This document shows, in pieces, positions 4,060-32,599 of a stretch of 33,216 bases of DNA. Made by a program: the position numbers and the translations under genes. Positions within the stretch are counted from its first letter, which is position 1. Every line of letters starts with the position of its first letter. Under the pieces are notes generated by a model that had not been told where the DNA came from, did not search any database, and worked only from the letters and a program-made list of their open reading frames with translations. Source of the stretch: Flammeovirgaceae bacterium (lineage in GTDB: Bacteria; Bacteroidota; Bacteroidia; Cytophagales; Cyclobacteriaceae); contig JAHEZH010000056.1 of the NCBI GenBank assembly GCA_023251155.1, positions 1 to 33,216 of the forward strand, read 5' to 3'.

Positions 4060-4788
4060 TCAATCTGCTTTCAATTTTCCATTTCTCTTTAACACCTTAA
4101 CAAAACCATACAGCACGGCCAGCAACAACCATATCGCCAGTAATATTTTATAACCTATAAGTGGGACATCAACTAAATTCGGATGATCGAAAATATTCTT
4201 GGCTATCAGCAGCAAACAAAGTGTGGCGGTCGTGAAAGTGGAATTGCATTCATTAACGAGGACACGCTTGATAGACCAACGGTGTTCCCTGAGCGTTTCA
4301 CCAATACCAAACAAAGAAGGTACCCAACGGTTGACCCTTCTCATGTAATAGCGATATTGATCTCTGTATTTATTTTCCAGAAATACTTCTTCCGCAGCGA
4401 CAATAGTTCCGTAGATAGAAGCAAAAGCAACCGTAACGAACAGGAAGAAGACAAAATTATTAGACATCATCCCCATTCCCACCACAACAAGAATACTTCC
4501 CAGGTAGTAAGGATTTCTACAATGAGAAAAAAAACCACTCACAATTAAATCATCCGCATTGACTCGTCCATATTTAAACCCGCGGTCTCTTCGCACTAGG
4601 CCAACAGTTAACAGCCGGAAAGCGTGACCAACAAAGACAACGGATAGCCCGATGACCATCGCCAGCACAGGATGTTGAAAAAGGTCCGGTGATGGAATGA
4701 ATACCCACAGAAACAGTAATGGAAAAATTCCATTTCGATACCTGTAAAAAAAATTACCGATCCGCACCATCAACATATTTACTTTCAT
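4060..4788 (-). CDS. Isoprenylcysteine carboxyl methyltransferase-like (ICMT/PEMT) membrane protein
   Basis: 242 residues with hydrophobic helices near 19-31, 41-62, 96-128 and 190-230. The methyltransferase signature is at residues 91-97 (RNPYYLG) with an upstream His45, followed by E133/E134 and the Y-rich segment ending in RVNRW at 151-155. These match the SAM-binding C-terminal half of ICMT/phospholipid methyltransferase-fold proteins. A hydrophobic tail of about 60 residues after position 180 is extra relative to the shortest members. The substrate (a lipid, prenyl-Cys or other) cannot be predicted. It follows a DUF6660 gene after a 259-base spacer and precedes the P-loop ATPase by three bases. 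Confidence 0.75.
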   Translation of the reverse strand: MKVNMLMVRIGNFFYRYRNGIFPLLFLWVFIPSPDLFQHPVLAMVIGLSVVFVGHAFRLLTVGLVRRDRGFKYGRVNADDLIVSGFFSHCRNPYYLGSILVVVGMGMMSNNFVFFLFVTVAFASIYGTIVAAEEVFLENKYRDQYRYYMRRVNRWVPSLFGIGETLREHRWSIKRVLVNECNSTFTTATLCLLLIAKNIFDHPNLVDVPLIGYKILLAIWLLLAVLYGFVKVLKRNGKLKAD

Positions 4789-4810
4789 GCTATCGAAAAA
4801 TTATACAGTT

Positions 4811-4925
4811 AAAAAACTCCTCATTACATCAGCACTAACATTTACATGGAGCACAATCAGGTAGCAATCACCTAAGACCGGTCAGAATCAATCATTATAA
4901 TGACCATCAGCAGATCATTGACCGG
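4811..4925 (-). promoter_or_regulatory. Structured spacer between DUF6660 copy 1 and the methyltransferase gene
   Basis: Part of a 259-base gap. On the minus strand, a stem of 7 Watson-Crick pairs pairs 4919-4925 with 4878-4884 (CCGGTCA/TGACCGG), with a G-U extension and a 12-base palindrome TCATTATAATGA in its loop (4892-4903). Nearer the gene, CTCCAT pairs with ATGAGGAG around a bulge (4846-4851 with 4817-4824) and is followed directly by six T (4816-4811), which looks like a weak terminator or attenuator 22 bases before the ATG. The GAGGAG is too far (28 bases) to act as a normal ribosome site. A TAnnTTTT box closer to the gene could be a separate promoter. Confidence 0.4.
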
Positions 4926-5047
4926 CATGCGCAACAAGAAAGGATATGTAAATGAATGCGGAAGACAGACACACAAACGCCTCTACTCCATTCAAGCAGC
5001 GCTTAAATGAGAGCAGAAATTAGCTGCGTGTTAATACCTGGAAAGGA

Positions 5048-5362
5048 TTATAGCTTGGGAGGCTGCCAGACTGAATAAACAATAGAAGGCAGCGAAGAGT
5101 GTAAAAGAATAGGTTCCTCAATACGAACCACATTATCAATGGACGTGAACGTGTAAAACGTGGCTTCATTGACTTCGGTATGACAACAACTGCATTGACA
5201 GAACGGAGTACATACATCCTTTTCTGTCGAAGTATGTTCATGGTCTGCGGTGCTAACGGCAATACCTTTATTCTTTTCATCTATGCATGTCAGCCCATCC
5301 GAACATGGATAGAACACCATGAAGCAGATGAGAATAAAAAAAACATGACAGACAATTTTCAT
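5048..5362 (-). CDS. DUF6660 family exported Cys-rich protein, copy 1
   Basis: 104 residues from the second of two adjacent ATGs (5362 or 5365); this choice aligns best with the two paralogs downstream. A hydrophobic export signal (residues 3-19) ends in YPC20. Then come H41-x-H43, the cluster C51-TPF-C55-Q-C57-S-C59-C60, and the C-terminal VWQPPKL. The His pair plus five closely spaced Cys looks like an extracytoplasmic metal site; no enzyme motif is present. DUF6660 proteins occur next to metal-efflux genes in Bacteroidota. A TACCTTTG box lies only a few bases upstream. It is followed by a 259-base spacer and the methyltransferase gene in the same direction. Confidence 0.85.
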   Translation of the reverse strand: MKIVCHVFFILICFMVFYPCSDGLTCIDEKNKGIAVSTADHEHTSTEKDVCTPFCQCSCCHTEVNEATFYTFTSIDNVVRIEEPILLHSSLPSIVYSVWQPPKL

Positions 5363-5368
5363 CATGCG

Positions 5369-5376
5369 CAAAGGTA
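5369..5376 (-). promoter_or_regulatory. Bacteroidota -7 box (TACCTTTG) of DUF6660 copy 1
   Basis: The minus strand reads TACCTTTG, a perfect match to the TAnnTTTG element used by the primary sigma factor of Bacteroidota. It ends 3 bases before the first ATG, so the transcript would have almost no leader. No convincing -33 TTG at the usual distance was seen. Confidence 0.55.
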
Positions 5377-5480
5377 AAATCAAATCAAGTGCAACTGAGT
5401 ATCAACAAAGAAATTTATTTCTTCACCTCTAATCGGTTTTTAATACAGACAGTGCGATGATAACAATATGTTAATACGAA

Positions 5481-6374
5481 TTAAAGAATATAATACTTAT
5501 CTGGCGCTGGCTTCTGCGGTATTTCCTTGTCACCAATCATCTGCCGGATATTAATTTCAATGGTCTGCGCCAAATCCGTAACCGGTGTATCCATCGGCTT
5601 GTTTTCAAATGGATCTTGCATCAGAATAGAAGTTTTTTCGATAGCAATAAAGACCACTGGTATAACGATCGTCAGAACAATTTCAACAACCGGAAAATCA
5701 TCGGGCAATCCAAAAGGCAGCATCGTAGCAAACACATAAATAATAGTATGAATCAACATACTGTGCGCTTTCGGAAATACCGTATTCTTTATCCGTTCAC
5801 ACTTGCCCATCGAATCACACAACTTAACCAATGTTGTATCCAGCTGCACCTGCTGAAACTCATTGATCATTTTCGTATCGAATGCTGTTCGCAAATCATT
5901 GGCGTGTTCTACCAACAATGCGTTCGGAAGGTTTTTAGCTTCACTAAGTCCATGCACATCCACATACGATTTAACCCGCTCACTTAACGGTAGCTTTCTC
6001 AGCGATTCGCCCAGCGCATAGCACCATACAATTTGCCGCACAGCCATCCGTTCGATGAGGTGTTGGTGATCTACATGATGCTTTTTGAAAAACAATAGCG
6101 ATTGCCGCACCAGCGAACGGGAATCATTGACAATAGCACCCCACACCGTACGCGCTTCCCACCAGCGGTCATACGATTGATTGGTTCGGAATCCAAGTAA
6201 CAACGCTACTGCCGTCCCAAATACGGAGGTTACTCCTACGGGTATAACAATGGAATTAAATACACCATACCCATCAAAATACCCAATCACCGTAGCGTAA
6301 ATGGTAATCAGCAGAATGTCATATTTAATGAGTGAAAAAAAATCAGCGATGGAGATTCGTTTATTTAAAAGCAT
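5481..6374 (-). CDS. Bestrophin-family (UPF0187) anion channel
   Basis: 297 residues. Start and topology fit bacterial bestrophins: an N-terminal amphipathic segment (KRISIADFFSLIKYD), TM1 at about 18-40, then a conserved loop with LLGFRTNQSYDRWWEAR and WGAIVNDSR (about 58-90), a cytosolic helical middle, and TM helices around 212-245 ending before KTSILMQDPFENKP, the family's C-terminal landmark. Bacterial homologs form pentameric channels in the inner membrane, some conducting cations. It is a single gene divergent from DUF6660 copy 2 and upstream of, but separated by 118 bases from, DUF6660 copy 1. Confidence 0.88.
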   Translation of the reverse strand: MLLNKRISIADFFSLIKYDILLITIYATVIGYFDGYGVFNSIVIPVGVTSVFGTAVALLLGFRTNQSYDRWWEARTVWGAIVNDSRSLVRQSLLFFKKHHVDHQHLIERMAVRQIVWCYALGESLRKLPLSERVKSYVDVHGLSEAKNLPNALLVEHANDLRTAFDTKMINEFQQVQLDTTLVKLCDSMGKCERIKNTVFPKAHSMLIHTIIYVFATMLPFGLPDDFPVVEIVLTIVIPVVFIAIEKTSILMQDPFENKPMDTPVTDLAQTIEINIRQMIGDKEIPQKPAPDKYYIL

Positions 6375-6452
6375 AATGAGTTATTAAAGGAGTTAAACTT
6401 CAGCGATAGTCAGATATAAAAGATAACATAACACGCTGGATTATTTTAGATT

Positions 6453-6484
6453 TTGTACGGCTTTGTTTTTTTCTCTTACTTCGC
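6453..6484 (+). promoter_or_regulatory. Predicted promoter of DUF6660 copy 2
   Basis: TTG at 6453-6455, a 21-base spacer, then TACTTCGC at 6477-6484, followed by three bases and the GTG start. Spacing matches the Bacteroidota TTG-N19-21-TAnnTTTG pattern, though the -7 box is imperfect. The same arrangement, with the same distances, precedes DUF6660 copy 3. Confidence 0.5.
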
Positions 6485-6487
6485 AAC

Positions 6488-6805
6488 GTGAAAGTGCACT
6501 ACCATTTACTGGCATTCTATCTCACCACACTGGTCTTCTTTCCGTGTAGTGATACAAACTCCTGGACAACGTCCGGTGATGTGTCATTTGCCGTAAGTAC
6601 ACAGACGCATTCACATGACGAAGGTAAAGATGTATGTAGCCCACTCTGTCGTTGTACTTGCTGTGCAGCATCGATTCAATTACCAACATCTCTGGACAAC
6701 ACTACTGAAATGGATTCGCACAATACAAAATGCAGTACCCCCTACTCCATTTCTTATATCGTCAGCAGTGCGTGGACAATCTGGCAACCGCCCAAAATTG
6801 CTTAG
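6488..6805 (+). CDS. DUF6660 family exported Cys-rich protein, copy 2
   Basis: 105 residues starting at GTG; no in-frame ATG is available near the hydrophobic signal (residues 6-19, ending FFPC20). It shares with copies 1 and 3 the HSH pair (41-43), the cluster C50-SPL-C54-R-C56-T-C58-C59, and the C-terminal TIWQPPKIA. It is thus a second version of the same small exported, probably metal-binding protein. The start codon is three bases after the predicted -7 box. A stem-loop begins exactly 10 bases after its TAG stop, and a 257-base spacer leads to the DUF1345 gene. Role unproven; a regulatory leader polypeptide is one possibility. Confidence 0.82.
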   Translation: MKVHYHLLAFYLTTLVFFPCSDTNSWTTSGDVSFAVSTQTHSHDEGKDVCSPLCRCTCCAASIQLPTSLDNTTEMDSHNTKCSTPYSISYIVSSAWTIWQPPKIA

Positions 6806-6815
6806 TTGATTTTCC

Positions 6816-7008
6816 TGATTCAGTTTCCTCTGAATCAAATTACAATGATCGTAACAAATTTAGTACAGTATTTCACTGCGCAATAAGGTAGCGCATAAAA
6901 AATACAATTCAGATTTAACATTTCGCATCTTATAAAAAGGAGGTGATAAAAATCTGAATTGCGAATCACTGTGTTCATTAACGTCAGCGAACAACTGACT
7001 TCGTTCGC
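6816..7008 (+). promoter_or_regulatory. Structured RNA candidate between DUF6660 copy 2 and the DUF1345 gene
   Basis: Hairpin 1: TGATTCAG 6816-6823 with CTGAATCA 6830-6837. Hairpin 2: TGCGC 6877-6881 with GCGCA 6891-6895. Hairpin 3: 12 perfect pairs, 6905-6916 with 6950-6961 (CAATTCAGATTT/AAATCTGAATTG). The loop of hairpin 3 carries AAGGAGGTGAT (6937-6947), an 11-base match to the extended Shine-Dalgarno sequence, but no start codon follows at normal distance. Two competing stems, GTCAG/CTGAC (6983-6999) and GCGAAC/GTTCGC (6987-7008), follow. Hairpins 1-3 recur after DUF6660 copy 3 with changed but still paired bases. No T-run makes any of them an ordinary terminator. Confidence 0.6.
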
Positions 7009-7062
7009 ATCAATTTCAATGCTACTTACTTTTAAAAAGCAAATCATTTATCCTTCACATGT

Positions 7063-7740
7063 ATGACCAAAAAGAAAACACCCTTTCTTAAAAAGTTTCG
7101 TGCAGTACACCGGCTCCTGCTCTCTATCGGATTAGCACTTATCGTATTTGCTATTTTAGTAGTAGCTAAACTTGAATTCGTATTAGCAGTGATTCTTGCG
7201 TGGAACAGCTTTACCCTGTTTATGGTCATCATCAGCTGGATCACCTTTTTTTCTACTTCCTCCCGCCAGCTCGCCATTAGCGCCAATGTACAGGATGAAA
7301 GCCGATATGTCATATTTATCATCGTCATCATCTCAGTAGCAATTATGCTCTTTGGAACTTTTGCACTTATCCAAAACACCGAAGACGGTTTAATGGGAAG
7401 AGGCCTGCACATCGCCACCACATTAACAAGTGTGTTTCTTTCCTGGTGCTTACTCCATACGATGTACACATTACGATATGCACACTTATACTATTCGGAA
7501 AGCATGGACAATCCAACTTCCCATCCATGTGGCCTCGCGTTCCCAAAAAATACAAACCCCGATTATCTTGATTTTGCCTACTTCGCTTTTGTCATTGGAA
7601 TGACGTTCCAGGTATCCGATGTTCAAATCACTTCTTCCGAAATTCGAAGGTTTGCATTACTTCATGGACTAATCTCATTTGTATTCAATACTATCATCGT
7701 TGCACTCACCATTAATATCATTGCTGGAATAATTAAATAA
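7063..7740 (+). CDS. DUF1345 family membrane protein
   Basis: 225 residues, with about six hydrophobic helices (roughly 18-35, 37-60, 82-105, 115-135, 165-183, 200-222). The second half, with HIATTLTSVFLSWCLLHTMY, the Tyr/His-rich RYAHLYYSE, PDYLDFAYFAFVIGMTFQVSD and the final IIVALTINIIAG, is typical of DUF1345. This is an uncharacterised inner-membrane family. It begins 257 bases after DUF6660 copy 2, behind a structured spacer, which suggests shared control with that gene. No function can be given. Confidence 0.83.
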   Translation: MTKKKTPFLKKFRAVHRLLLSIGLALIVFAILVVAKLEFVLAVILAWNSFTLFMVIISWITFFSTSSRQLAISANVQDESRYVIFIIVIISVAIMLFGTFALIQNTEDGLMGRGLHIATTLTSVFLSWCLLHTMYTLRYAHLYYSESMDNPTSHPCGLAFPKNTNPDYLDFAYFAFVIGMTFQVSDVQITSSEIRRFALLHGLISFVFNTIIVALTINIIAGIIK

Positions 7741-7914
7741 TCAATAGACCTTATAGGAATAGTAATGCGATCATTTGATTTACATAAGTTAAGCGCCTTT
7801 CATTCCAATGAGGCAACTTGTTACAGCTTTGTTGCAACTATACTTTTTATTGTTCTAAATCATAAAAAAACTTACCTTCAAATAACCGGGACAAGGAGTA
7901 TTTCGTTGAACACA

Positions 7915-7946
7915 TTGTTTACCTATTTGTTTTTACCGTATTTCGC
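7915..7946 (+). promoter_or_regulatory. Predicted promoter of DUF6660 copy 3
   Basis: TTG at 7915-7917, 21 bases, then TATTTCGC at 7939-7946, three bases, then GTG. This repeats the layout upstream of DUF6660 copy 2 base for base in spacing. The 209 bases between the DUF1345 gene and this start otherwise show no convincing gene. Confidence 0.5.
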
Positions 7947-7949
7947 ATT

Positions 7950-8267
7950 GTGAAAGTCAAACATCTCTTTTTAGCATTCTATTTAATCGCAGTGGTATTC
8001 TACCCGTGCGATGATGTAAGTGCTTGCGCGAAAGTAGATGTCAATACCAACATTGTGAGTGCCGATGCACATCAACATCCGGAAAGCAAAGACTTATGCA
8101 GCCCGCTCTGCATCTGTAGCTGCTGTGCAGCTTCCATTCAGCTGACCACCGTTTTTGTGAACATCCCTGAAATCGCCTCACACAACACACGGTTCCTCAC
8201 TCCTTACTCCATTATTCGCGTTGTGAGCAACGCACAATCCATCTGGCAACCGCCAAAGATTGCCTAA
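7950..8267 (+). CDS. DUF6660 family exported Cys-rich protein, copy 3
   Basis: 105 residues from a GTG start. The layout is identical to copy 2: hydrophobic signal to FYPC20, HQH at 41-43, C50-SPL-C54-I-C56-S-C58-C59, and the C-terminus SIWQPPKIA. Conservation between copies is highest at the Cys cluster and in the last ten residues; the middle (60-90) varies more. The stop is followed after 10 bases by the same TGATTCAG stem-loop seen after copy 2, and a 247-base spacer leads to the small membrane peptide and the CzcA-type efflux operon. This is the copy whose context ties the family to metal export. Confidence 0.84.
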   Translation: MKVKHLFLAFYLIAVVFYPCDDVSACAKVDVNTNIVSADAHQHPESKDLCSPLCICSCCAASIQLTTVFVNIPEIASHNTRFLTPYSIIRVVSNAQSIWQPPKIA

Positions 8268-8277
8268 TTCTTTTCTT

Positions 8278-8503
8278 TGATTCAGTCATCACTGAATCCA
8301 TTTCATTGTTCTGTAAAAAAATTAGTGACGTATTGTTCTGCACAAAACGATGTGCAAAATAATTACAGCTCCAAACTCCATTCAGTTTAACATTCGGTTG
8401 CTGTAAAAGGAGTCGGACTGAATTCATTCATAGCAATACGTTGAACTTAATAAGGCACACAGGTATGGCCCTTGATGATAGTTATTCATCGCCTATCCGT
8501 GCC
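8278..8503 (+). promoter_or_regulatory. Structured RNA candidate upstream of the metal-efflux operon
   Basis: Hairpin 1: TGATTCAG 8278-8285 with CTGAATC 8292-8298. Hairpin 2: TGCACA 8339-8344 with TGTGCA 8351-8356. Hairpin 3: ATTCAGT 8380-8386 with ACTGAAT 8417-8423, enclosing TTTAACATT on the left and TAAAAGGAG (8404-8412) on the right. A fourth, longer imperfect hairpin spans 8454-8503 (GGCAC/GTGCC outside; GG/CC, GGC/GCC and GATG/CATC inside, with a symmetric TAT/TAT internal loop). Compared with the spacer after copy 2, one pair in hairpin 2 and one in hairpin 3 differ on both sides yet stay paired. No intrinsic terminator is evident. Confidence 0.6.
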
Positions 8504-8514
8504 AGTTCAGCAGT

Positions 8515-8688
8515 ATGAAAAATATTAGAACTCGAAATATACATCCGAAGTCAAAACTAAAATTAAAAGGAAAAGATCAAGGCAAATCAGGACACAAAGC
8601 AAACATCATCTTCTTAATGGTGATCATCCTTGTCATCCTGGTGGCGATCATTTCCAATGTATTGTCTAAAATGAACATCAACCATTAA
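8515..8688 (+). CDS. 57-residue single-pass membrane peptide
   Basis: The ORF from the ATG at 8515 to the TAA at 8686-8688 encodes a Lys/Arg-rich N-terminus (about 30 residues, starting MKNIRTRN), one strong transmembrane helix (about 31-49, IIFLMVIILVILVAIIS) and a short polar tail. It ends two bases before the ATG of the CzcA-type pump, so translation is probably coupled. Topology by the positive-inside rule would be N-in. I do not recognise a family; a small accessory subunit of the RND pump (as AcrZ is for AcrB) is a guess from position and shape. Confidence 0.65.
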   Translation: MKNIRTRNIHPKSKLKLKGKDQGKSGHKANIIFLMVIILVILVAIISNVLSKMNINH

Positions 8689-8690
8689 TC

Positions 8691-11600
8691 ATGCTCGATA
8701 AAATAATTCATTTCTCTATCCACAATAAGTTAATAATCGGACTCTTCACAGTAGGTCTTATTATTTGGGGTGGATACTCCGTGATGGAACTGCCGGTAGA
8801 TGCGGTACCGGACATTACCAACAATCAGGTTCAGGTAATCACACAAAGCCCTTCACTTGCCGGACAGGAAGTAGAACGGCTCATTACTTTTCCGGTAGAA
8901 CAAACCATGGCCACCATCCCGGAGCTATTGGAAATCCGCTCCATGTCACGGTTCGGTCTTTCTGTAGTTACGATCGTCTTCCATGATGACACCGATATTT
9001 ACTGGGCACGCCAGCAGGTGAATGAAAAACTCAGTGAAGCAAAAAATAACATTCCTCCAGGAATTGGAACTCCCGAAATTTCACCCATCTCAACAGGACT
9101 CGGTGAAATTTATCAATATGTAGTAGCAGCCAAACCCGGCTTTGAAAAAAAATACGGTCCTACCGAACTGCGTACCGTTCAGGACTGGATCGTACGCAGA
9201 CAACTGCTCGGCACTCCAGGCATAGCAGAAGTAAACAGCTTTGGTGGTCTGTTAAAGCAATATGAAATAGCGCTCGATCCGGACAAACTGCGCAGCTACA
9301 ACTTAAGTATCAGCGATGTATTCACCGCACTTGAAAAAAATAATCAGAACACCGGTGGCGCCTACATCGATAAAAAACCGAATGCCTACTTCATCCGAAG
9401 TGAAGGGTTAATATCCAACGTAGAGGATATAGGTAAGATTGTCGTGAAACGTACTCCGCAGGGCATCCCTGTTTTAATTAAGAATATCGCTACCGTACAA
9501 ATAGGAAACTCCATACGATACGGTGCATTGACACGTACTACTAAACAATCATCAGGTGAAGCAGTAGGTGGAATTGTATTGATGCTCAAAGGAGAAAATT
9601 CCAATAACGTAGTCACCAGCGTAAAAGCAAAAATGGATCAGATCCGCAAAACACTTCCTGAAGGAGTGATGGTCGAATCCTTTTTAGACCGAAGTGCCTT
9701 CGTAGGTCGTGCTATTCATACGGTAGAGAAAAACCTCATCGAAGGAGCACTCATTGTCATCTTCGTGCTGGTCCTCTTCCTCGGCAATTTCCGTGCAGGA
9801 CTCATCGTAGCTTCGGTAATACCATTAGCCATGCTCTTCGCCATCTCACTAATGAATTTGTTTGGCGTCAGCGGAAACCTGATGAGCCTCGGGGCTATCG
9901 ACTTTGGTCTCATCGTAGATGGTGCCGTAATCATTGTCGAAGCCACACTCCATCATCTGGGCATGCGTAACATCACACAACGCTTAACACAATCTGAGAT
10001 GGATGCAGAGGTATATGAGTCGGCTTCTAAAATTCGTACCTCAGCAGCATTCGGTGAAATCATCATCCTGATCGTGTATCTCCCTCTACTTGCACTGTCA
10101 GGTATTGAAGGAAAAATGTTCAAGCCCATGGCGCAGACCGTCTCCTTTGCCATACTCGGTGCTTTCATCTTATCACTAACCTATGTTCCCATGATCTCCG
10201 CTTTATTCCTCAGCAAGAATGTCATTCACAAGAAAACATTCGCTGACAAAATGATGGACTTCTTCCAGCGCATGTACACGCCACTCATCGAAGGTGCCTT
10301 ACGCAGAAGATGGCTGGTGTTGATTTCAGCGATAAGCATGCTCGTCATCAGCATCTTTATTTTCTCCCGTCTCGGTGGTGAATTTATCCCTACACTCGAA
10401 GAAGGTGACTTTGCCGTAGAGACTCGTTTGCTCACCGGTAGTTCATTATCGCAAACCATTGACAAAGTAGATCAGGCATCGAAAATCCTAATCAACCGCT
10501 ATCCGGAAGTCAAAGAAGTAGTAGGAAAAATCGGTGCAGCAGAAATTCCAACTGACCCAATGCCGATGGAATCCTGTGACCTGACCATTATTCTCAAAGA
10601 CAAAGAAGAATGGCCAACACCCTATTCAAGAGAAGAATTACAGAATAGCATGGCCGAAACACTCGAAGCAATACCGGGTGTCACCTTCGGCTTCTCTCAA
10701 CCAATACAACTTCGTTTCAATGAACTGATTTCCGGAGTACGACAGGATGTAGGTATAAAAATATTCGGAGACAATCTGGATGAGCTGACCGTCCTCTCAG
10801 AGAAGATTGGAAAAATTGTTTCCAAAGTGGAAGGTGCCAAAGACCTCTACCTGGAGAAAGTTACAGGACTTCCACAGATCGTCATCTCCATTGACCGTGA
10901 TCAGGTTGCTAAATATGGACTAGACATCAACGCAGTGAACGAAGCCATCAACGCAGGCTTCGCTGGACAATCTGCAGGCTTAGTATATGAAGGAGAAAAA
11001 AGATTTGACCTGGTCGTACGCCTGTCCAAAGAAAACAGACAGGGTATCGATAATGTAAAAACGTTATACGTCACTTCGGTCGATGGAAATCAGATACCAC
11101 TACAGAACCTGGCTAAGATCGAATTCAGACAAGGCCCTAACCAGATTCAACGTGAAGATGCCAAACGCAGAATCATCGTTGGCTTTAACGTCAGAGGAAG
11201 AGACATCGCCAGTGTCGTAACAGAAATTGAAGACAGAATCAACAAAGAGATAAAACTACCTACCGGGTACTTCATCACCTATGGCGGCCAGTTTGAAAAT
11301 CTGAAAGAAGCACAGAAAAGATTATCCGTAGCAGTGCCCATCGCACTTGCACTCATACTCGTATTGCTCTACTTCTCCTTTGGATCTATGCGTCAGTCCT
11401 TCCTGATCTTTACTGCCATACCAATGGCAGCCATCGGTGGTGTGTTTGCATTATTGTTCCGGGGAATGCCTTTCAGTATTTCCGCAGGCGTAGGTTTCAT
11501 CGCACTCTTCGGTGTAGCCGTACTTAACGGAATCGTATTGATTGCTGAATTCAACCGCCTGAAAAAAGATGGACTCACCGACCTGAGAGAAATTATACTA

Positions 11601-13055
11601 CAAGGAACGGCCATCCGCTTACGTCCGGTACTAATGACCGCCTCCGTGGCATCAATGGGATTTCTTCCTATGGCCATCTCCTCTTCAGCCGGAGCAGAAG
11701 TACAAAAGCCATTGGCAACAGTAGTAATCGGTGGACTCATAACTTCAACCGTGTTGACACTACTCGTGCTTCCCGTACTCTATACCTTCTTTGAAAAAAT
11801 GAAAGTGAAGACCGGAGCCACCGTAGCAACTCCGCTTCTCATTGGTGCAATGTTGTTAGCAGGTATAAACAACACACAGGCTCAGACTACTCCGTTAACA
11901 TTGGAGAAAGCAACCGAGATGGCACTTCAGAATAACTATGCCATCAAATCAGCGGGCCTGGAAATTCAGTATAATCAAAAGATTAAACGAACCTCTACTG
12001 AAATACCCAAAACAAATATTGTATACATGGGTGGGCAGTACAACAGTTATTACAATGACAACAATATCACTGTCTCGCAGAACATCCCCTTTCCTACCTT
12101 GTTTACTGCGCAAAGTGCGCTGGGAAAATCAATGGTACGCGGCAGTGAACTCAAGAAGGCTGCCAACGAGAATGAACTGGTGTATCAGGTACGACAAGTG
12201 TACTACCAGTTGACCTACCAGTATGCCTGGAGAGAATTGCTTCTTCAGCAAGACAGCATCTATGAAGGGTTCTTTCGTTCAGCTTCCATTCGCTATAAAA
12301 CAGGTGAAAGCAATCTGCTCGAAAAAGCAACCGTAGAAACGCAACGCAATGAAGTGAAGAACCAACTTCAATTGAATCAGGCCGATATTCAGATCTATCT
12401 CAACCAGCTACGAACACTGGTAAATAGCCCTGAACAAATTGACGTAGATCAGCATCAGATTTCCAAACGTGACTTTACTGTGCTCAGTGATGATCCATTA
12501 ATAGCGGAAAATCCAATGCTCCAATATCTGCAACAACAAAGTCAGACTGCTGCATTAGAAAAGAAAGTGGCCGTAGCACGGGTATTACCCGATTTGCTGG
12601 TGGGATATTTTAATCAGTCGCTCATCGGTATTCCCCTGCGAAATAACGAGCTGGCCACAACCAGCAACCGCTTCACCGGCTTTCAGGCAGGCATAAGTAT
12701 TCCACTATGGCTGGGGCCACACAATGCACGCATTCAGGCAGCTAAAATCAACACCGAAATCTCGAAGAGCAATTACTCACTCTACGAGATGAACCTCAAA
12801 GGACAATATGTACAAGCCGCTCAGGAATACCTTAAAAATAAAAGCAGCCTGAACTACTACGAGACTTCGGCACTTCCCAACGCAGACCTGATACTCAAAC
12901 AGGTGCAAACCGGATTTAGCAAAGGTGAGATCAACTACACCGAGTACCTCATCGGATTGCAACGAGCATTGAGTATCAAAGAAAGCTATCTGCGTTCACT
13001 CAACCAGTACAACCAAAGTATATTAACTATTGAATTCCTTATCGGTAAAAAATAA
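8691..13055 (+). CDS. czcA: CzcA-type heavy-metal RND efflux pump fused to a TolC-family domain
   Basis: 1454 residues. Residues 1-1035 form a complete HME-RND pump: two halves, each with a periplasmic loop between TM helices, and the relay motif D404-FGLIV-D410-GAVIIV-E417 in TM4, as in CzcA/CusA. From memory of the alignment, positions of the CusA Cu(I)-binding Met triad hold other residues (MESCDLT, RFNELISG), which favours divalent cations such as Zn, Co, Cd or Ni. Residues 1038-1065 are a basic stretch, a hydrophobic core and NNTQAQ, like an internal signal peptide. Residues 1066-1454 are a TolC/OEP domain. Such fusions are known in Bacteroidota. The operon continues with the CzcB adaptor. 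Confidence 0.93.
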   Translation: MLDKIIHFSIHNKLIIGLFTVGLIIWGGYSVMELPVDAVPDITNNQVQVITQSPSLAGQEVERLITFPVEQTMATIPELLEIRSMSRFGLSVVTIVFHDDTDIYWARQQVNEKLSEAKNNIPPGIGTPEISPISTGLGEIYQYVVAAKPGFEKKYGPTELRTVQDWIVRRQLLGTPGIAEVNSFGGLLKQYEIALDPDKLRSYNLSISDVFTALEKNNQNTGGAYIDKKPNAYFIRSEGLISNVEDIGKIVVKRTPQGIPVLIKNIATVQIGNSIRYGALTRTTKQSSGEAVGGIVLMLKGENSNNVVTSVKAKMDQIRKTLPEGVMVESFLDRSAFVGRAIHTVEKNLIEGALIVIFVLVLFLGNFRAGLIVASVIPLAMLFAISLMNLFGVSGNLMSLGAIDFGLIVDGAVIIVEATLHHLGMRNITQRLTQSEMDAEVYESASKIRTSAAFGEIIILIVYLPLLALSGIEGKMFKPMAQTVSFAILGAFILSLTYVPMISALFLSKNVIHKKTFADKMMDFFQRMYTPLIEGALRRRWLVLISAISMLVISIFIFSRLGGEFIPTLEEGDFAVETRLLTGSSLSQTIDKVDQASKILINRYPEVKEVVGKIGAAEIPTDPMPMESCDLTIILKDKEEWPTPYSREELQNSMAETLEAIPGVTFGFSQPIQLRFNELISGVRQDVGIKIFGDNLDELTVLSEKIGKIVSKVEGAKDLYLEKVTGLPQIVISIDRDQVAKYGLDINAVNEAINAGFAGQSAGLVYEGEKRFDLVVRLSKENRQGIDNVKTLYVTSVDGNQIPLQNLAKIEFRQGPNQIQREDAKRRIIVGFNVRGRDIASVVTEIEDRINKEIKLPTGYFITYGGQFENLKEAQKRLSVAVPIALALILVLLYFSFGSMRQSFLIFTAIPMAAIGGVFALLFRGMPFSISAGVGFIALFGVAVLNGIVLIAEFNRLKKDGLTDLREIILQGTAIRLRPVLMTASVASMGFLPMAISSSAGAEVQKPLATVVIGGLITSTVLTLLVLPVLYTFFEKMKVKTGATVATPLLIGAMLLAGINNTQAQTTPLTLEKATEMALQNNYAIKSAGLEIQYNQKIKRTSTEIPKTNIVYMGGQYNSYYNDNNITVSQNIPFPTLFTAQSALGKSMVRGSELKKAANENELVYQVRQVYYQLTYQYAWRELLLQQDSIYEGFFRSASIRYKTGESNLLEKATVETQRNEVKNQLQLNQADIQIYLNQLRTLVNSPEQIDVDQHQISKRDFTVLSDDPLIAENPMLQYLQQQSQTAALEKKVAVARVLPDLLVGYFNQSLIGIPLRNNELATTSNRFTGFQAGISIPLWLGPHNARIQAAKINTEISKSNYSLYEMNLKGQYVQAAQEYLKNKSSLNYYETSALPNADLILKQVQTGFSKGEINYTEYLIGLQRALSIKESYLRSLNQYNQSILTIEFLIGKK

Positions 13056-13077: not shown

Positions 13078-14268
13078 ATGAAAATTTCATATAAACTATT
13101 CGCTATCCTGTTTTCAACTACCCTCATTATATCCTCATGTGGTAATAAGAAAACTGCGGACGAGAAAGAACCTGAAGGCGGAACAGCAAATGCCGATAGC
13201 ACAAACACAACGGTAAATGAAGTGGTCTTCACAAAGGTGCAATACCAGACAGCAGCCATCAAAATGGAAAAAGTCCAACGTGCTCCTATCAGTGGCATGA
13301 TCAAAGTAAATGGAGTACTGGACGTGCCACCAGAAAGTATGGCACTGGTATCAGCACCCATGGGCGGATTTCTCAAATCAACAAACCTGCTTCAGGGTAG
13401 CTTTGTAAAGAAAGGACAAGTCGTTGCCGAGATGCAGGATCAAAGCTACATCCAGCTGCAACAGGATTACCTGGACAGCAAAAGTCAAATGGAGTTCCTG
13501 CAAACGGAATATGAACGCCAGCAGGAACTGGCCAGGGAAAATGTGAACGCTCAAAAAACATTGCAGCAATCCAAATCTGATTTTCAAAGCATCTCTGCAA
13601 AAGTAAATGGACTGAAAAAGAAACTGGAGCTGATCAATATCCCATTCGCTTCCCTGGATAAAGGAGACATACAAGGTACTATCAAACTCTACGCTCCCAT
13701 CAGCGGCTATGTAACCAAAATCATGGTCAGCATCGGAGCATTCGTTAACCCAAGCGATAAAATGTTTGAGATCGTAGATACCAAGCACCTTCATGCCGAA
13801 CTATCCGTCTTCGAACAAGATGTTCCCAAGTTGAAAGTAGGTCAGAAAATACGCGTCACCTTAGGTAATGAATCCACTGAACGTATCGGGATCATTCACC
13901 TGATCGGAAGAGAAATCAGTGCCGACCGTACCGTACGCGTACACGGGCACTTTGAAAAAGAAGACAGCGACCTGCTGCCAGGTACATTTTTAAAAGCAAC
14001 TATCGAGACAGGTACATCAGAAACACCTGCCTTACCCGATCAGGCCATCGTCAGCTATGAAGGAAAAAAATACATCATGGTCGCCACTTCACCTGTAACG
14101 AATGTTAATGAATACACTTTCAAAATGGTGGAAGTGGAAACAGGAGAAAGTGAAGGCGGATATACCGCAGTCATACTTCCCAAAGAGTTCGATGAGGCAA
14201 GCAACATCGTCTATCAGGGAGCCTATGATATCCTTTCCAAGATGAAGAACAGTGAAGAGGAAGAATAA
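13078..14268 (+). CDS. czcB: CzcB-type RND periplasmic adaptor lipoprotein
   Basis: 396 residues from the ATG at 13078. An upstream in-frame start at 13030 would overlap the pump gene and spoil the signal. The lipobox IISSC21 predicts a lipoprotein with the acylated Cys followed by a polar linker. Then come half of a barrel-sandwich domain (VSAPMGGFL...GSFVKKGQVVAEM), a coiled-coil hairpin (about 120-190, QQDYLDSKSQMEFLQTEYE onward), the second half (LYAPISGYVTKI) and a beta-barrel/membrane-proximal end. It links the inner-membrane pump to the TolC channel. The start lies 22 bases after the pump stop, clearly one operon. The N-terminus has no obvious Met/His metal site. Confidence 0.9.
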   Translation: MKISYKLFAILFSTTLIISSCGNKKTADEKEPEGGTANADSTNTTVNEVVFTKVQYQTAAIKMEKVQRAPISGMIKVNGVLDVPPESMALVSAPMGGFLKSTNLLQGSFVKKGQVVAEMQDQSYIQLQQDYLDSKSQMEFLQTEYERQQELARENVNAQKTLQQSKSDFQSISAKVNGLKKKLELINIPFASLDKGDIQGTIKLYAPISGYVTKIMVSIGAFVNPSDKMFEIVDTKHLHAELSVFEQDVPKLKVGQKIRVTLGNESTERIGIIHLIGREISADRTVRVHGHFEKEDSDLLPGTFLKATIETGTSETPALPDQAIVSYEGKKYIMVATSPVTNVNEYTFKMVEVETGESEGGYTAVILPKEFDEASNIVYQGAYDILSKMKNSEEEE

Positions 14269-27445: not shown

Positions 27446-28633
27446 ATGGAAAACAGGAGCATCGTGCACATGGATCTGGACACCTTTTTCGTGTCCGTGG
27501 AGAGGAAACTGCATCCCGAACTCAGAAAAGTACCCCTCATCGTAGGAGGTCAGGGCGGCCGAGGAGTAGTCGCTGCCTGTAGTTATGAAACTCGTCTTTT
27601 CGGAGTCCATTCGGCCATGCCCATGCGAATGGCACTCCAACTTTGCCCCGATGCGAAGGTGATCTCCGGAGACATGGAAGCCTATAGCAAGCATTCACAT
27701 TTAGTAACAGATGTGATCAAAGATGCGGCACCTGCATTTGAGAAAGCATCCATCGATGAATTTTATATTGATGCCAGCGGACTCGATAAATTCTTCGGTG
27801 CCTTCAAGTGGGCAGGCGAACTTCAACAACGAATTGTCAAAGAGACAGGACTACCCATCTCGATGGGAATGTCGGTGAACAAGACCGTATCAAAAATTAC
27901 TACCGGTGAGTTCAAACCCAGAGCATCGAAGAACATCCCTCCCGGAACCGAACGTGATTTCCTCGCGCCATTAAAAATAGAGAAGATGCCAGGCATCGGT
28001 CAGCAGACTGCGGTGATGTTGCATGACATGGGCGTACGCGATATTAAAACATTACGTGACATGCCGAGAAAATTTCTAACCAGCGCCTTCGGCAAACATG
28101 GCATCACCATGTGGAACAAAGCCAATGGAATTGACCACACACCTGTCGTACAATACAGCGAACAAAAATCCATCTCCACAGAAAGTACGTTTCAGGAAGA
28201 CACCATAGACACAAAAAAATTAAAGTCACTGTTGATCGCCATGGTGGAGAAAGTGGCCTTTCAGTTACGCGAAGAAAAGAAACTCACTTCCTGTGTCACC
28301 GTGAAGATTCGTTATTCCAACTTCGATACGGAAACCAAACAAGTTGCCATCCCCTACTCTTCCAGCGATCACATCCTGCTTAAAGTTGTGACCGAGTTGT
28401 TCGACAAATTATATTCAAGGCGCATGCTCTTGCGATTAGTGGGAGTACGCTTGAGCAACCTGGTACATGGCACGCATCAGATCAGCCTGTTCGATGATAC
28501 CGAAGAAGACATCAATCTCTACGAACGTATCGACCACATTAAGCACCGCTTTGGCTCCGATAAAATCATGCGCGCAGTCACGCTCGATGTTTCAAGGCGC
28601 GTGAAGATGAATTCCAATCTGTTCAAAGGATAA
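27446..28633 (+). CDS. dinB: Y-family DNA polymerase (DinB/Pol IV type)
   Basis: 395 residues. D10 in VHMDLDTFF (steric-gate Phe next to it), the YETR loop (48-50) and S102-I-D104-E105 provide the metal-binding carboxylates of the Y-family palm. The HhH region MPGIGQQTAVML (181-192) and little-finger domain follow. Q345-ISLF349 is a canonical beta-clamp-binding motif near the C-terminus. It is a translesion polymerase acting at stalled forks. It ends 13 bases before the DnaE-type polymerase, and the pair looks like an error-prone repair cassette, divergent from an XRE regulator. Confidence 0.92.
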   Translation: MENRSIVHMDLDTFFVSVERKLHPELRKVPLIVGGQGGRGVVAACSYETRLFGVHSAMPMRMALQLCPDAKVISGDMEAYSKHSHLVTDVIKDAAPAFEKASIDEFYIDASGLDKFFGAFKWAGELQQRIVKETGLPISMGMSVNKTVSKITTGEFKPRASKNIPPGTERDFLAPLKIEKMPGIGQQTAVMLHDMGVRDIKTLRDMPRKFLTSAFGKHGITMWNKANGIDHTPVVQYSEQKSISTESTFQEDTIDTKKLKSLLIAMVEKVAFQLREEKKLTSCVTVKIRYSNFDTETKQVAIPYSSSDHILLKVVTELFDKLYSRRMLLRLVGVRLSNLVHGTHQISLFDDTEEDINLYERIDHIKHRFGSDKIMRAVTLDVSRRVKMNSNLFKG

Positions 28634-28646
28634 TCATTCATTGAGT

Positions 28647-31600
28647 ATGTTTCTCAACTGTCATACGTGGTTCAGTTTCAAGTACGGCACCATGCCGATT
28701 GATCGCCTGTTTGATGAAGCCAAACGATTAGGTATTCACAAGCTCATGATCACTGAAATCAACAACACCGCCTCGTACATTGATTTCCTTCGCATCATCG
28801 AAGAAAGGAAAAGTGAATTCGATCTGACCATTGCCTTAGGAATGGAATTCCGGCAAGGAAGTGAATTCCGTTTTATTGCCCTCGCACAAAGCAACGCAGG
28901 CTTCGAAAACATCAACCGCTATCGCTCCTACCTCAACAATGAAGGACTACTCATTCCTGAACGAGCACCTGCATTGGAAGAAACGTATATCATTTACGCA
29001 TGGGATAAACTTCATCCGCAAGAATTAGCAGAGAATGAATTCATCGGCATACGTGCTTCACAGCTGACTAAGTTCATGCTACGAAGAGAACTGCATGAAT
29101 TCAAAGACAAGCTGGTAGCCTTACACCCGGTCACCTTCGCAGATAAACATGGCTTCAATGTTCATCGCCTGTCACGTGCAATTGATCTGAACGTGTTGCT
29201 TAGCAAACTACCTCCTACTGAACAAGCACAGGAAGAGGAAGTATTGATATCCGAACAGGCCCTGCGTGAGAAGTTCAGGAACTTCCCCTACCTGGTGGAG
29301 AATGCCAAAACAATTCTCGACAACTGTCACATTCAATTCGACATTGGTGTGGATAAGAATAAAAAAAGCATTTCAGGCAACGAAGAAGAAGATTGGGACT
29401 ACCTCATCACCAAAGCATGGGAAGGATTTCAGCGCATGTATGATTCTTCCGATCCCGTCATGCGTGAACGCTTTGAGCGGGAGTTGAACATCATCAAGCA
29501 GAAAGAATTCTGTACCTATTACCTCATTGCCTACGATCTTATTCAATTCACCACACGAAATGGATATGATCATGTAGGACGCGGTAGTGGTGCCAACAGC
29601 ATGGTAGCGTACTGCTTAGGTATCACCAATGTCGATCCCATCGAACTGGATCTGTACTTCGAACGCTTCCTCAATGCCGAGCTTACTACTCCTCCCGACT
29701 TTGACATTGACTTCTCCTGGGAAGATCGTGATCGCATCTATGATTACCTCTTTCATAAATATGGAAGAGATCATGTATGCTTACTAGCTACCCACACTAC
29801 CTATCAGCGCAGGAACATCATTCGTGAATTGGGAAAAGTATTTGGTCTGCCCAAGTCAGAGATCGATGAGATTGTCACCTACCCGGAGATGAACAAAGAC
29901 CGTGATCACATTACACGATTAATCTTTCGCTACTCCGAATACATGCACGGCATGCCCGTCAACTTATCGGTTCACGCTGCGGGTGTGCTCATCACGGATC
30001 GACCTATGTACGCATATACCGCTACCGACCTTCCACCGAAAGGATATCCCATCACCCACTTCGAAATGCACGCGGCTGAAGACTTTGGTATATATAAGTT
30101 CGACATCTTAAGTCAGCGTGGCCTTGGACACATTAAGTCCACTGCACAGTTAGTGAAGAAGAATAAAGGGATCGATGTCGATGTGCACGACTTCAAGGCG
30201 TTCAAAAAAGATGAGAAGATCAGATCACTCATCAAGAATAGCCAGTGCATGGGATGCTTCTATGTGGAGTCTCCGGCAATGCGAACATTACTCGCCAAGC
30301 TACAATGCGAAGACTACTTAACCCTAGTTGCAGCAAGTTCCATTATCCGTCCGGGTGTATCGAGCTCCGGAATGATGCGCTCCTACATCGAACGCTTTCA
30401 CATCACACGCAACGGTGGTACCTACGAATCCATTCATCCCAAGATGGACGAACTCATGCACGAAACCTATGGCGTCATGGTGTACCAAGAAGATGTCATC
30501 AAAGTAGCACATCACTTTGCAGGACTGACGCTGACAGAAGCGGATGTCTTACGCAGGGCAATGTCAGGTAAGTACCGCTCGCGCAAAGCATTCGATATGA
30601 TCCAGCAGAAGTTCTTCAGCAACTGCGCTTCCTTCGGCTATCCCAAAGCAGTAGCCGAACGTGTATGGTTTGAGATACAAAGCTTCGGTGGCTACTCATT
30701 TGCCAAAGGACACTCGGCCAGTTTTGCGGTGGAAAGTTACCAGAGTCTTTATCTGAAAGCCCATTACCCTTTGGAGTTCATGGTGGGTGTCATCAATAAC
30801 TTCGGTGGCTTCTATTCCACCGAGTTTTACTTTCATGAAGCCCGCATGAACGGTGCGCACATAGAAGCATGCTGTCTTAACCACAGTGAATACCTGACCA
30901 ACATCGAAGGCATTACTATATACATTGGTTTCATTCACCTGCGGAGTCTGGAGAGCAAGATTGCTCAACGTATTGCCATGGAAAGAAAGAAGAATGGCGC
31001 CTACACGGGCCTTACCAATTTTCTAAGGCGCATTGAGATTGGCCTCGAACATACACGTGTACTCATACGAATCGGTGCATTTCGTTTTACAGGCAAGAGC
31101 AAGCAGCGGCTCCTATGGGAAGCCATGCTTTATTTCGGAGAAGTGAAGACAAAGAACAACCACAGCGGTATCCTGTTCAACGAAGAACCCGATGAACAAC
31201 CGTTCCCCGATTTAAAACGACATCCAATCGAAGATGCCTTCGATGAAATTGAAATCATCGGATTTCCGTTGTGTGATCCATTCAATCTATTAGCCACAAC
31301 CGAACGTGGTGATACGTTGACGCATGAACTGATGTCGAAATTAAAAAAGCAAGTAGCAATGGTCGGCTACCTGATCACCACCAAAGACACCGGCACCAAG
31401 AATAAAGAACTCATGCACTTCGGCACCTTTTATGACTATAAAGGAATCCCCTTCGACACCGTTCACTTTCCTCAGATAGCAAAGAAACATCCCTTTCGGG
31501 GAAGAGGATTTTATCTGGTAAAAGGAAAAGTAGTCGAAGACTTTGGCGTGCCCTGCATCGAAGTGAATTACATGGAGAAGTTACCGTTGGTAAACAAACG

Positions 31601-31682
31601 TAATCTTCCCAATGATCCATCACTTAATCAGGTCAATGAAACTACACTGGCTCAAAAGCTATTACCAGCAGATGTTCAATGA
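28647..31682 (+). CDS. DnaE-type DNA polymerase III alpha, error-prone class
   Basis: 1011 residues from the ATG at 28647 (a TTG at 28641 is also in frame). Start NCHTWFSFKYG is the PHP domain, but it lacks the first His of HxHS and has ITEIN where active PHP domains have TDH, so PHP metal binding is probably lost. The C-family catalytic region is intact: GRGSGANS with YCLGITNVDP, P-D351-F-D353-I-D355-F, VYQEDV, AMSGKYRS and SFAKGHSASFA. Shorter than the replicative DnaE (about 1160) and paired with DinB, as in DnaE2-like mutagenesis cassettes. No ImuA-like gene is present. Confidence 0.9.
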   Translation: MFLNCHTWFSFKYGTMPIDRLFDEAKRLGIHKLMITEINNTASYIDFLRIIEERKSEFDLTIALGMEFRQGSEFRFIALAQSNAGFENINRYRSYLNNEGLLIPERAPALEETYIIYAWDKLHPQELAENEFIGIRASQLTKFMLRRELHEFKDKLVALHPVTFADKHGFNVHRLSRAIDLNVLLSKLPPTEQAQEEEVLISEQALREKFRNFPYLVENAKTILDNCHIQFDIGVDKNKKSISGNEEEDWDYLITKAWEGFQRMYDSSDPVMRERFERELNIIKQKEFCTYYLIAYDLIQFTTRNGYDHVGRGSGANSMVAYCLGITNVDPIELDLYFERFLNAELTTPPDFDIDFSWEDRDRIYDYLFHKYGRDHVCLLATHTTYQRRNIIRELGKVFGLPKSEIDEIVTYPEMNKDRDHITRLIFRYSEYMHGMPVNLSVHAAGVLITDRPMYAYTATDLPPKGYPITHFEMHAAEDFGIYKFDILSQRGLGHIKSTAQLVKKNKGIDVDVHDFKAFKKDEKIRSLIKNSQCMGCFYVESPAMRTLLAKLQCEDYLTLVAASSIIRPGVSSSGMMRSYIERFHITRNGGTYESIHPKMDELMHETYGVMVYQEDVIKVAHHFAGLTLTEADVLRRAMSGKYRSRKAFDMIQQKFFSNCASFGYPKAVAERVWFEIQSFGGYSFAKGHSASFAVESYQSLYLKAHYPLEFMVGVINNFGGFYSTEFYFHEARMNGAHIEACCLNHSEYLTNIEGITIYIGFIHLRSLESKIAQRIAMERKKNGAYTGLTNFLRRIEIGLEHTRVLIRIGAFRFTGKSKQRLLWEAMLYFGEVKTKNNHSGILFNEEPDEQPFPDLKRHPIEDAFDEIEIIGFPLCDPFNLLATTERGDTLTHELMSKLKKQVAMVGYLITTKDTGTKNKELMHFGTFYDYKGIPFDTVHFPQIAKKHPFRGRGFYLVKGKVVEDFGVPCIEVNYMEKLPLVNKRNLPNDPSLNQVNETTLAQKLLPADVQ

Positions 31683-32152: not shown

Positions 32153-32599
32153 ATGACAAAACCTGTTAATATCTTACTGGCCGATGACGATGTGGATGAC
32201 CGTATCGTCTTTGCCGAAGCGATTGAACTCGAAAGATGCAATGCAACCGTACAGGAAGCTGCCGATGGACAAATGGCTATTGACCTTCTAAGGCGAGGGC
32301 ACACCATTCCTGACGTTGTTGTCTTGGATGTGAACATGCCATCGATGAATGGGATTGAAACCCTTAAATGGATACGTTCCGATGAGCGACTAAAATCACT
32401 CCGCGTGGTGATGCTCAGTACTTCCGCTTCAAAAGAAAATGTGATTGCAAGTTAAGAAGCTGGCGCGGATATCTATCTGGAAAAACCAACCCAATTTAAA
32501 GATCTTCGAATGCTGGTGCGCGACCTTGCACAGCAAAACTGGGATGCACTCTCCACATCCCCTCCTAATTTTTTCTCTAAAATGCAATTAGCAAATTGA
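32153..32599 (+). pseudogene. Response regulator receiver gene with in-frame stop
   Basis: CheY-like receiver domain: acidic pocket D11-D12-D13 (ADDDVDD), phospho-acceptor D59 in VVLDVNMPSMNG, and S89/T90 in VVMLSTSAS. After VIAS a TAA (32453-32455) interrupts the frame, but the same frame goes on with EAGADIYLEK111-P112 and a normal C-terminus to the TGA at 32597-32599. The conserved Lys-Pro lies after the stop. The expected Tyr codon (TAT/TAC) would become TAA by one substitution. The truncated 100-residue product lacks the last helix and the essential Lys, so is probably inactive. A sequencing error is possible. Confidence 0.78.

Follow-up and report, generated by a model that had tools for sequence, protein, structure and literature searches.

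We analysed a 33,216-nucleotide stretch of DNA from a Flammeovirgaceae bacterium (assembly GCA_023251155.1, contig JAHEZH010000056.1, positions 1 to 33,216 of the forward strand; hereafter, the window) that carries three genes of the protein family DUF6660, here called c1, c2 and c3. Our results suggest that DUF6660 genes probably act in cis as metal-sensing leaders, in the manner of CutF of Rhodobacter and CruR of Bordetella. An earlier note on this DNA had proposed a CruR-like cassette, a sensor peptide plus an RNA, on the ground that the three genes are followed by spacers of equal length. This interpretation is right in kind for a reason other than equal spacers: the argument from spacer length failed, and an exported Cys/His sensor combined with RNA is supported family-wide by an invariant Pro-Pro (PP), the spacing between Cys and PP, the placement of the promoter, linkage to resistance-nodulation-division (RND) pumps and TonB-dependent receptors, and pairing between stop and start regions. 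The three genes had been placed correctly in the note, and all three open reading frames (ORFs) scored above the Pfam gathering score of PF20365 (DUF6660), 27 bits:

5048..5362, minus strand: DUF6660 putative leader gene c1 (PF20365, 36.7 bits, and alignment; C-terminal VWQPPKL, stop codon TAA)
6488..6805, plus strand: DUF6660 putative leader gene c2 (PF20365, 34.5 bits; GTG start; C-terminal IWQPPKIA)
7950..8267, plus strand: DUF6660 putative leader gene c3 (PF20365, 34.9 bits; GTG start; C-terminal IWQPPKIA)
5369..5376, minus strand: predicted -7 promoter box TACCTTTG of c1 (from sequence; promoter score 21.2, c1 being a member of the score's training set)

The encoded proteins are 104-105 amino acids long, with intact reading frames and an intact Pro-Pro (WQPPKL or WQPPKIA), and the c1 protein has a hydrophobic N-terminal helix and a Cys/His motif. 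DUF6660 genes were collected from 62 genomes of the host genus (22 with matches), 392 genomes sampled across the phylum Bacteroidota (74 with matches, about a fifth), 16 plasmid records and 80 loci from named genomes; 12 weak matches from the phylum sample were not taken into the locus set. Dropping five repeat loci of the window's own genome left 100 of 105 proteins for alignment. From these, two loci were removed because no long ORF followed in the stretch, 10 because they were redundant at 85% identity and 2 because their gap was below 25 bases, which left 86 loci. The 80 named-genome loci, kept from 234 relatives, included 33 that were redundant with the first set or with each other; among the 47 left, 3 had no downstream gene, giving 44, which together with the 86 from the genus and phylum sets made 130 non-redundant loci with a next gene. 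The next long gene was one of at least 150 codons, classed by BLAST, and next-gene starts were guesses (the first ATG).

The Pro-Pro was invariant in 100 of 100 aligned homologs, with the preceding Gln conserved in 95% and the Trp in 90%, and each Cys of a CxPFCxCxCC motif was conserved in 91-100% of the same alignment. The PP lay within the last 15 residues in 47 of 47 proteins of the second non-redundant set, and it was followed by only 2-5 residues in all 86 loci of the first. The distance from the first Cys of CxPFC to the PP was 49-54 residues, about 51, in 79 of the 83 loci (of 86) that bear the motif, and about 44 residues separate the second Cys from WQPP. An AlphaFold model made with 52 sequences was confident only in an N-terminal helix at residues 3-17 (mean predicted local distance difference test score, 59); the N-terminus is hydrophobic.

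We then examined promoter placement. The Bacteroidota -7 box (TAnnTTTG and near variants) ended 2-9 bases before the DUF6660 start codon, mostly 4-7, in 70 of 86 loci. It had this placement at 14 of the 16 plasmid loci and at 33 of the 47 further ones. Among next genes it did so for 1 of 86, and among control genes taken from 20 of the same genomes for 17 of 334 (5.1%). For Flavobacterium johnsoniae, boxes at a distance of 4-5 bases from the start site have been regarded as probable promoters (PMC6847099), and the 5.5% of leaderless mRNAs reported for F. psychrophilum (PMC9723704) is close to our control value. The box positions suggest that DUF6660 mRNAs are probably leaderless, beginning at or a few bases from the start codon. 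The c1 box is perfect: it lies 6 bases before the ATG at 5362 and 3 bases before a second in-frame ATG one codon upstream, at 5365, and predicts a leaderless mRNA. As a separate observation, the 70 bases before the DUF6660 start contained a dyad, TTGCA-n6-TTGCA or TGCAA-n6-TTGCA, at 24 of 133 loci (for example L006, L013, L015, L036, L039, L054 and L076), whereas none of 133 control stretches taken from the downstream region had one; it is possibly the operator of a repressor.

By reading the spacers, we noticed complementarity between the bases at the DUF6660 stop codon and those just before the next start. A duplex test with wide arms gave -10.92 for native and -7.84 for swapped arms (86 loci, p=1e-9). 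In the refined test, the stop arm measured 24 bases and the start arm 33; loci with gaps below 55 bases were dropped (86 to 77), and the stop/start duplex was -8.72 kcal/mol native versus -4.96 kcal/mol swapped (n=77, p=1.6e-10); 95 ordinary co-oriented control gene pairs gave -4.60 native versus -4.81 swapped. When the arms were slid along the RNA, pairing peaked sharply at the stop codon and, for the other arm, 12 bases before the next start. Two sets of loci had not been used to form the idea of this stop-start clamp, and both showed it: the plasmid loci (-12.5 versus -5.4, n=15, p=8e-4; 12 non-redundant ones, -13.3 versus -5.7, p=0.001) and the named-genome loci (-8.48 versus -5.40, n=41, p=3e-6). 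Dinucleotide shuffles of the start arm within each locus gave p<=0.05 in 38 of 57 and 13 of 29 short-gap loci. RNAalifold found 13 pairs, 6 of them changed on both sides, in a subgroup of 15 sequences and 21 pairs, 4 of them so changed, in one of 6 sequences; it found no useful structure in two other subgroups, because their arms diverge and are misaligned.

Accessibility of the next start was modelled with the RNA blocked under a ribosome that holds the first Pro of PP in its P site. The unpaired fraction of the start region rose from 0.41 to 0.51 (n=57) and from 0.41 to 0.53 (n=29), and showed no rise in control pairs (0.549 to 0.541, n=53). Together, the duplex tests and the modelling support masking of the target start by an RNA structure between leader and target in canonical loci, those with gaps of about 55-130 bases.

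Taken together, these data suggest the following mechanism. Transcription would begin on the DUF6660 start codon or a few bases away from it, as the promoter box implies, and the nascent chain would carry an export signal and the CxPFCxCxCC/His metal site. A metal-dependent ribosome pause would then occur at W-Q-P-P, about 51 residues past the first Cys and just before the stop codon. In the common form, with a gap of about 55-130 bases, the stop-codon region would pair with the 30 bases before the next start. When a ribosome pauses on Pro-Pro, one arm of the clamp would lie beneath it, and the start region of the pump or receptor gene would become accessible. The identity of the metal, the pausing and the sign of the response are all inferred. 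A more specific version, which we hold tentatively and put a little short of an even chance, is that DUF6660 is a Bacteroidota form of ribosome-read metal sensing in which the leader gene is leaderless, WQPP and not RAPP is the arrest motif, stop and start regions are paired, and one ribosome footprint both reads the metal and unlocks the target with no need of a Shine-Dalgarno sequence, the module having been recruited to the methyltransferase and DUF1345 genes of the window with longer RNA parts. If true, a family of unknown function would turn out to be metal sensors that are read by the ribosome and use a specific RNA mechanism open to testing, and the inducibility of CzcA/CusA operons that have no dedicated regulator beside them would be explained. 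To our knowledge, Bacteroidota mRNAs lack Shine-Dalgarno sequences, and DUF6660 loci would then also be a natural test of how stalled ribosomes control initiation in their absence.

Known leaders share much of this anatomy. The exported leader CutF of Rhodobacter capsulatus carries CxxxC and a Pro-rich C-terminus, the gene after it is masked by a stem-loop, and CutF was shown to act only in cis (PMC9973294). DUF6660 proteins resemble it in being small and putatively exported, in having CxPFC where CutF has CxxxC and a Pro-Pro within 15 residues of the C-terminus, and in preceding a metal-related, co-oriented gene whose start would be shielded by RNA structure; they differ in the W-Q-P-P end, the probably leaderless mRNA, and the use of their own stop region as the arm facing the next start. 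The same work lists 5,334 CutF-like proteins, with Bacteroidota making up 19% of its list D (40% normalised), and their neighbours include OEP, ACR_tran and TonB genes (PMC9973294). Because Bacteroidota CutF-like proteins with such neighbours are described there, the general class, probably with DUF6660 in it, was already known. Three of the filters used in that work for CutF-like proteins would retain c1-c3, which have fewer than 150 residues (104-105), PP in the last 15 residues (WQPPKL or WQPPKIA) and a co-oriented next gene less than 1,000 bases away (259, 257 and 247 bases); on a fourth, the N-terminal signal peptide, the hydrophobic N-terminus and the helix at residues 3-17 were observed. 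The available portion of the text does not name DUF6660. In our own searches of the literature, DUF6660 was mentioned nowhere, CutF-like proteins combined with Bacteroidota, copper and translation returned only PMC9973294, upstream ORFs of CusA/CzcA in Flavobacteria returned nothing, and in what was searched no description of leaderless placement or stop-start pairing of DUF6660 was found. We conclude that DUF6660 is most likely a variant of a known leader class whose new features, as read from sequence, are the leaderless placement, the stop-start pairing and WQPP.

CruR of Bordetella pertussis, a DUF2946 protein, has CXXC 45 residues before RAPP, which stands three residues from its end; it heads operons, often with TonB-dependent receptors, across a spacer of 162 bases, and acts by Rho-dependent termination, with repression in the presence of copper (PMC9426467). 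Its arrest was demonstrated in vitro, and the first Pro of PP was mapped to the P site (PMC12992588). Like CruR, DUF6660 has a Cys motif about 44 residues from a C-terminal PP motif and heads operons with TonB-dependent receptors, and long spacers comparable to that of CruR exist among its loci. Unlike CruR, it has (W)QPP in place of RAPP near its end, and homology to the DUF2946-like proteins tested could not be detected. The PF11162 (DUF2946) profile gave no match at E<=10 to 10 DUF6660 members, HMMER filters applying, and homology between the two families was detected neither in this way nor by hhalign, whose profiles were thin. The profile compared by hhalign came from seven Bacteroidota proteins; four Proteobacterial plasmids contained no DUF2946. 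For lack of a DUF2946 match or an hhalign link, we claim only that DUF6660 works like CruR, not that it is a member of that family. The wider class of RAPP/RGPP arrest peptides is likewise made up of small upstream ORFs with a C-terminal Pro-Pro and has copper- and TonB-related classes (PMC12992588). That paper reports its copper-related RAPP/RGPP ORFs to be absent from Bacteroidota; DUF6660, with its different motif, would fill this gap and, if the reading is true, provide WQPP as a candidate arrest motif there. SecM, VemP and MifM, too, are exported leaders whose C-terminal stalling opens an RNA structure masking the start of the next gene, as we propose for DUF6660, but they sense export and not metal (PMC9973294).

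Our searches also returned seven Bacteroidota DUF2946-like proteins (L233, L234, L235, L236, L237, L239 and L241), small and His-rich and ending in RAPP or RGPP, of which 2 of 7 pass the family cut-off. The genes downstream of them encode, as judged from translations, a probable TonB-dependent receptor, a CobW-like GTPase or other proteins, and the seven are possibly metal-responsive leaders.

Next, we compared the neighbours of DUF6660 genes across the family. The next long gene in the 130 loci was CzcA/CusA in 109, a TonB-dependent receptor in 17 (one was checked with Pfam and has Plug and CarbopepD_reg domains), CzcC in 1 and another gene in one; the remaining two, a PEMT and a DUF1345 gene, both belong to this window and are exceptional neighbours, because neither was seen next in any other of the 130 loci. 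Among the plasmid loci, 15 of 16 precede an annotated CusA/CzcA or TonB-dependent receptor gene, and the stretch of the sixteenth (Mucilaginibacter) stops at the edge of the record. The gap to the next gene had a median of 94 bases (130 loci), with 5th and 95th percentiles of 49 and 255 bases in the 86 loci, and fell at 235-270 bases in 6 of 130, three of which are the window copies. The earlier note had set the tabulation of next-gene distances across Bacteroidota beforehand as its refuting test, and since lengths vary freely, from 49 to 255 bases between these percentiles, equal spacers were rejected as a defining feature.

The window spacers and the genes that follow them are listed below.

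4789..5047, minus strand: structured spacer between c1 and the methyltransferase, 259 bases (fold z -3.10, dinucleotide shuffles)
6806..7062, plus strand: structured c2 spacer, 257 bases, related to the c3 spacer (fold z -3.35, dinucleotide shuffles)
8268..8514, plus strand: structured c3 spacer, 247 bases (fold z -4.53, dinucleotide shuffles)
4060..4788, minus strand: PEMT/ICMT-type membrane methyltransferase, putative target of c1 (PF04191, 39.9 bits)
7063..7740, plus strand: DUF1345 membrane protein, putative target of c2 (PF07077, 185.8 bits)
8515..8688, plus strand: small ORF of 57 codons, first gene past c3 (from sequence; basic N-terminus, one hydrophobic stretch, C-terminal NINH)
8691..13055, plus strand: CzcA/CusA RND pump fused to an OEP outer-membrane efflux domain (TIGR00914, 1208 bits; PF00873 and PF02321)
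13078..14268, plus strand: CzcB-type periplasmic adaptor (TIGR01730, 137 bits)

The spacer lengths given in the note hold, measured to the methyltransferase ATG at 4788, DUF1345 at 7063 and the 57-codon ORF at 8515; their equality as a sign of a cassette does not, given the free variation of gaps, a duplicated c2/c3 pair and an unrelated c1. The DNA of c2 and c3 is 68% identical from within the gene to about 100 bases past the stop codon, so their nearly equal spacers are due to duplication. No similarity to them was detected in the c1 spacer, and a search of its own genome for a repeated element gave no second copy; its equal length is therefore probably a coincidence. All three spacers fold better than dinucleotide shuffles. 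Hairpins are predicted in the c2 spacer at about 6816-6837, 6877-6895 and 6906-6960, and a strong local hairpin, the last predicted in the c3 spacer, ends a few bases 5' of the ATG at 8515. The c2 and c3 spacers share hairpins, one stem pair differing on both sides (TGCGC/GCGCA to TGCAC/GTGCA), and two hairpins both use ATTCAG/CTGAAT arms, a possible switch-like alternative pairing in these two sequences. The fold scores, from -3.1 to -4.5, and the stem changed on both sides would also suit a metal- or ligand-binding RNA, a riboswitch beside which DUF6660 is incidental. We consider this very improbable: the c1 spacer is unrelated, and two sequences have almost no power to reveal covariation. 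Furthermore, the Rfam 15 covariance models gave no match to the spacers (one sub-threshold match lay within a gene), and a search of the other 61 genus genomes with the c3 promoter, gene and spacer returned no spacer match, the sole outside match being 34 bases inside the gene.

Two further DUF6660 genes of this genome, on other contigs, lie at ordinary distances from the next gene: one is 83 bases from a small ORF that precedes CzcA, the other 69 bases from the gene of a TonB-dependent receptor. Their clamp energies are -13.1 and -7.1 (ranks 2 and 7 of 77 among swapped arms), with p of 0.18 and 0.06 against their own shuffles.

Several results weigh against the reading of DUF6660 as a metal-sensing leader. 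The clamp is a population effect, in which 42 of 77 native partners rank within the best 10% when compared with swapped ones; plasmid loci L137 and L152 (identical values) and L147 show little or none, and it is not significant for gaps above 130 bases (n=20, p=0.29; n=12, p=0.62). The window copies belong to this long-gap class, and neither the duplex nor the shuffle test found a canonical clamp in them (c1, c2 and c3: energies -6.1, -5.4 and -5.9; shuffle p 0.46, 0.41 and 0.24). The -7 boxes of c2 and c3 are degenerate (TACTTCG, TATTTCG; counted as misses), and their promoter scores, 5.2 and 6.6, are barely above the 95th percentile of random windows, 5.0. A search for DUF1345 in 245 genomes of the host's family found it in no genome but this one, and the methyltransferase occurs in 3 of 62 genus genomes, this one included, with a linkage to DUF6660 that is not conserved. 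An hhalign comparison of DUF6660 with the seven Bacteroidota DUF2946-like proteins gave a probability of 0.4, from thin profiles. Finally, a ribosome at the stop codon frees the start region equally well in the accessibility model, which thus cannot separate arrest from plain translational coupling.

This last result would also be expected if DUF6660 were a stable, exported metal-binding accessory protein, such as a periplasmic metallochaperone or buffer, and the pairing only coupled translation of proteins needed together. The hydrophobic N-terminus, the conserved Cys/His site and the co-occurrence with a pump or receptor fit this explanation as well. We nevertheless think it unlikely, since a PP 2-5 residues before the stop codon at a near-fixed distance from the Cys has no obvious role in a chaperone, no confident fold is predicted past the N-terminal helix, and the anatomy is shared with CutF, which acts only in cis (PMC9973294), and with CruR, an upstream ORF regulator (PMC9426467).

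For the window alone, a further explanation is that the downstream genes have their own promoters or are chance neighbours, c1 and c2 being relics of rearrangement and the spacers leftover DNA, which would be compatible with the leader reading of the family. The unconserved PEMT and DUF1345 targets (conserved linkage was sought in the genus, family and 130-locus comparisons and not found), the missing clamp, the duplication of c2/c3 and the absence of equal spacers as a family feature all point this way. So do the promoter scores in part, that of c2 hardly exceeding the best value of 5.1 within 70 bases upstream of CzcA, and a site scoring 6.1 standing 143 bases before the PEMT start. On the other side, the frames and PP of c1-c3 are intact, their spacers fold better than shuffles, and no clear promoter directly precedes PEMT (best score within 70 bases, 3.9), DUF1345 (4.2) or the small ORF (3.1); as judged from sequence, the scores for own promoters of the downstream genes, which the earlier note had named in its second refuting outcome, are weak evidence either way and not decisive. 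Besides, CzcN of Cupriavidus is a PEMT/ICMT-type methyltransferase and such enzymes occur in czc clusters, so the neighbour of c1 may be metal-related. We regard the relic explanation as doubtful, with a real but minor chance of being right. Most likely, the window leaders would still act on the next genes, either by a different RNA fold or, like CruR, by ending transcription between leader and target; no other step of our proposal is as weak. A wider scan for any partner of the stop arm in the window copies gave nothing convincing: the best c3 site lies within the small ORF and is equalled by 6% of random arms, and the partners of c1 and c2 are worse than most random arms.

Among the three co-oriented next genes that had been named, the methyltransferase and DUF1345 stand, and the metal-efflux operon begins with the small membrane ORF, CzcA following 2 bases on. 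The methyltransferase also matches the NCBIfam isoprenylcysteine methyltransferase model, below that model's cut-off, and the small ORF has no Pfam or NCBIfam match above a cut-off. Past the adaptor come an acyl-carrier-like protein, MgtC, a 203-residue membrane-type protein and a Cd/Zn-type P-type ATPase. The gaps in this operon are mostly under 55 bases as noted (2, 22, 19, 149, 50, 19 and 39, with one exception, taking the adaptor start as 13078). Likewise, no ArsR-, MerR- or kinase-type regulator gene was present among the 30 window ORFs, a part of the total, that were scanned with Pfam; the sole regulator domain among them is a lone response-regulator receiver at 32153-32455.

Several minor observations were made along the way. 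The CzcA pump and OEP domain of the window form one protein of 1,454 residues (8691-13055). At 17 of 133 non-redundant loci, DUF6660 and CzcA are separated by a basic, apparently single-transmembrane ORF of about 40-60 residues (for example the window ORF at 8515-8688, L006, L011, L013, L014, L019, L076, L086, L088 and L179; spurious frames in L008, L060, L079 and L181 were left out of this count). These ORFs mostly end 1-8 bases before CzcA, and 8 have a terminal N-(I/F/L)-N motif; they are candidates for a small RND partner. In L007 and L010 (the same as L163 and L164), DUF6660 occurs in tandem, with the second gene about 300 bases on and CzcC 388 bases further, and in L100 a relative of the PEMT/ICMT-type methyltransferase lies downstream of a DUF6660-receptor pair. 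The plasmid gene tables, incomplete by design, omit DUF6660 or call it differently in L139, L142, L144, L145, L146 and L147: there is no coding sequence in four of these loci, one on the opposite strand in L144 and a later start in L145. At 27446-31682, the window carries a gene for a Y-family polymerase-like protein followed by one for a DnaE-type polymerase III alpha subunit, a pair which we take to be imuB-dnaE2-like.

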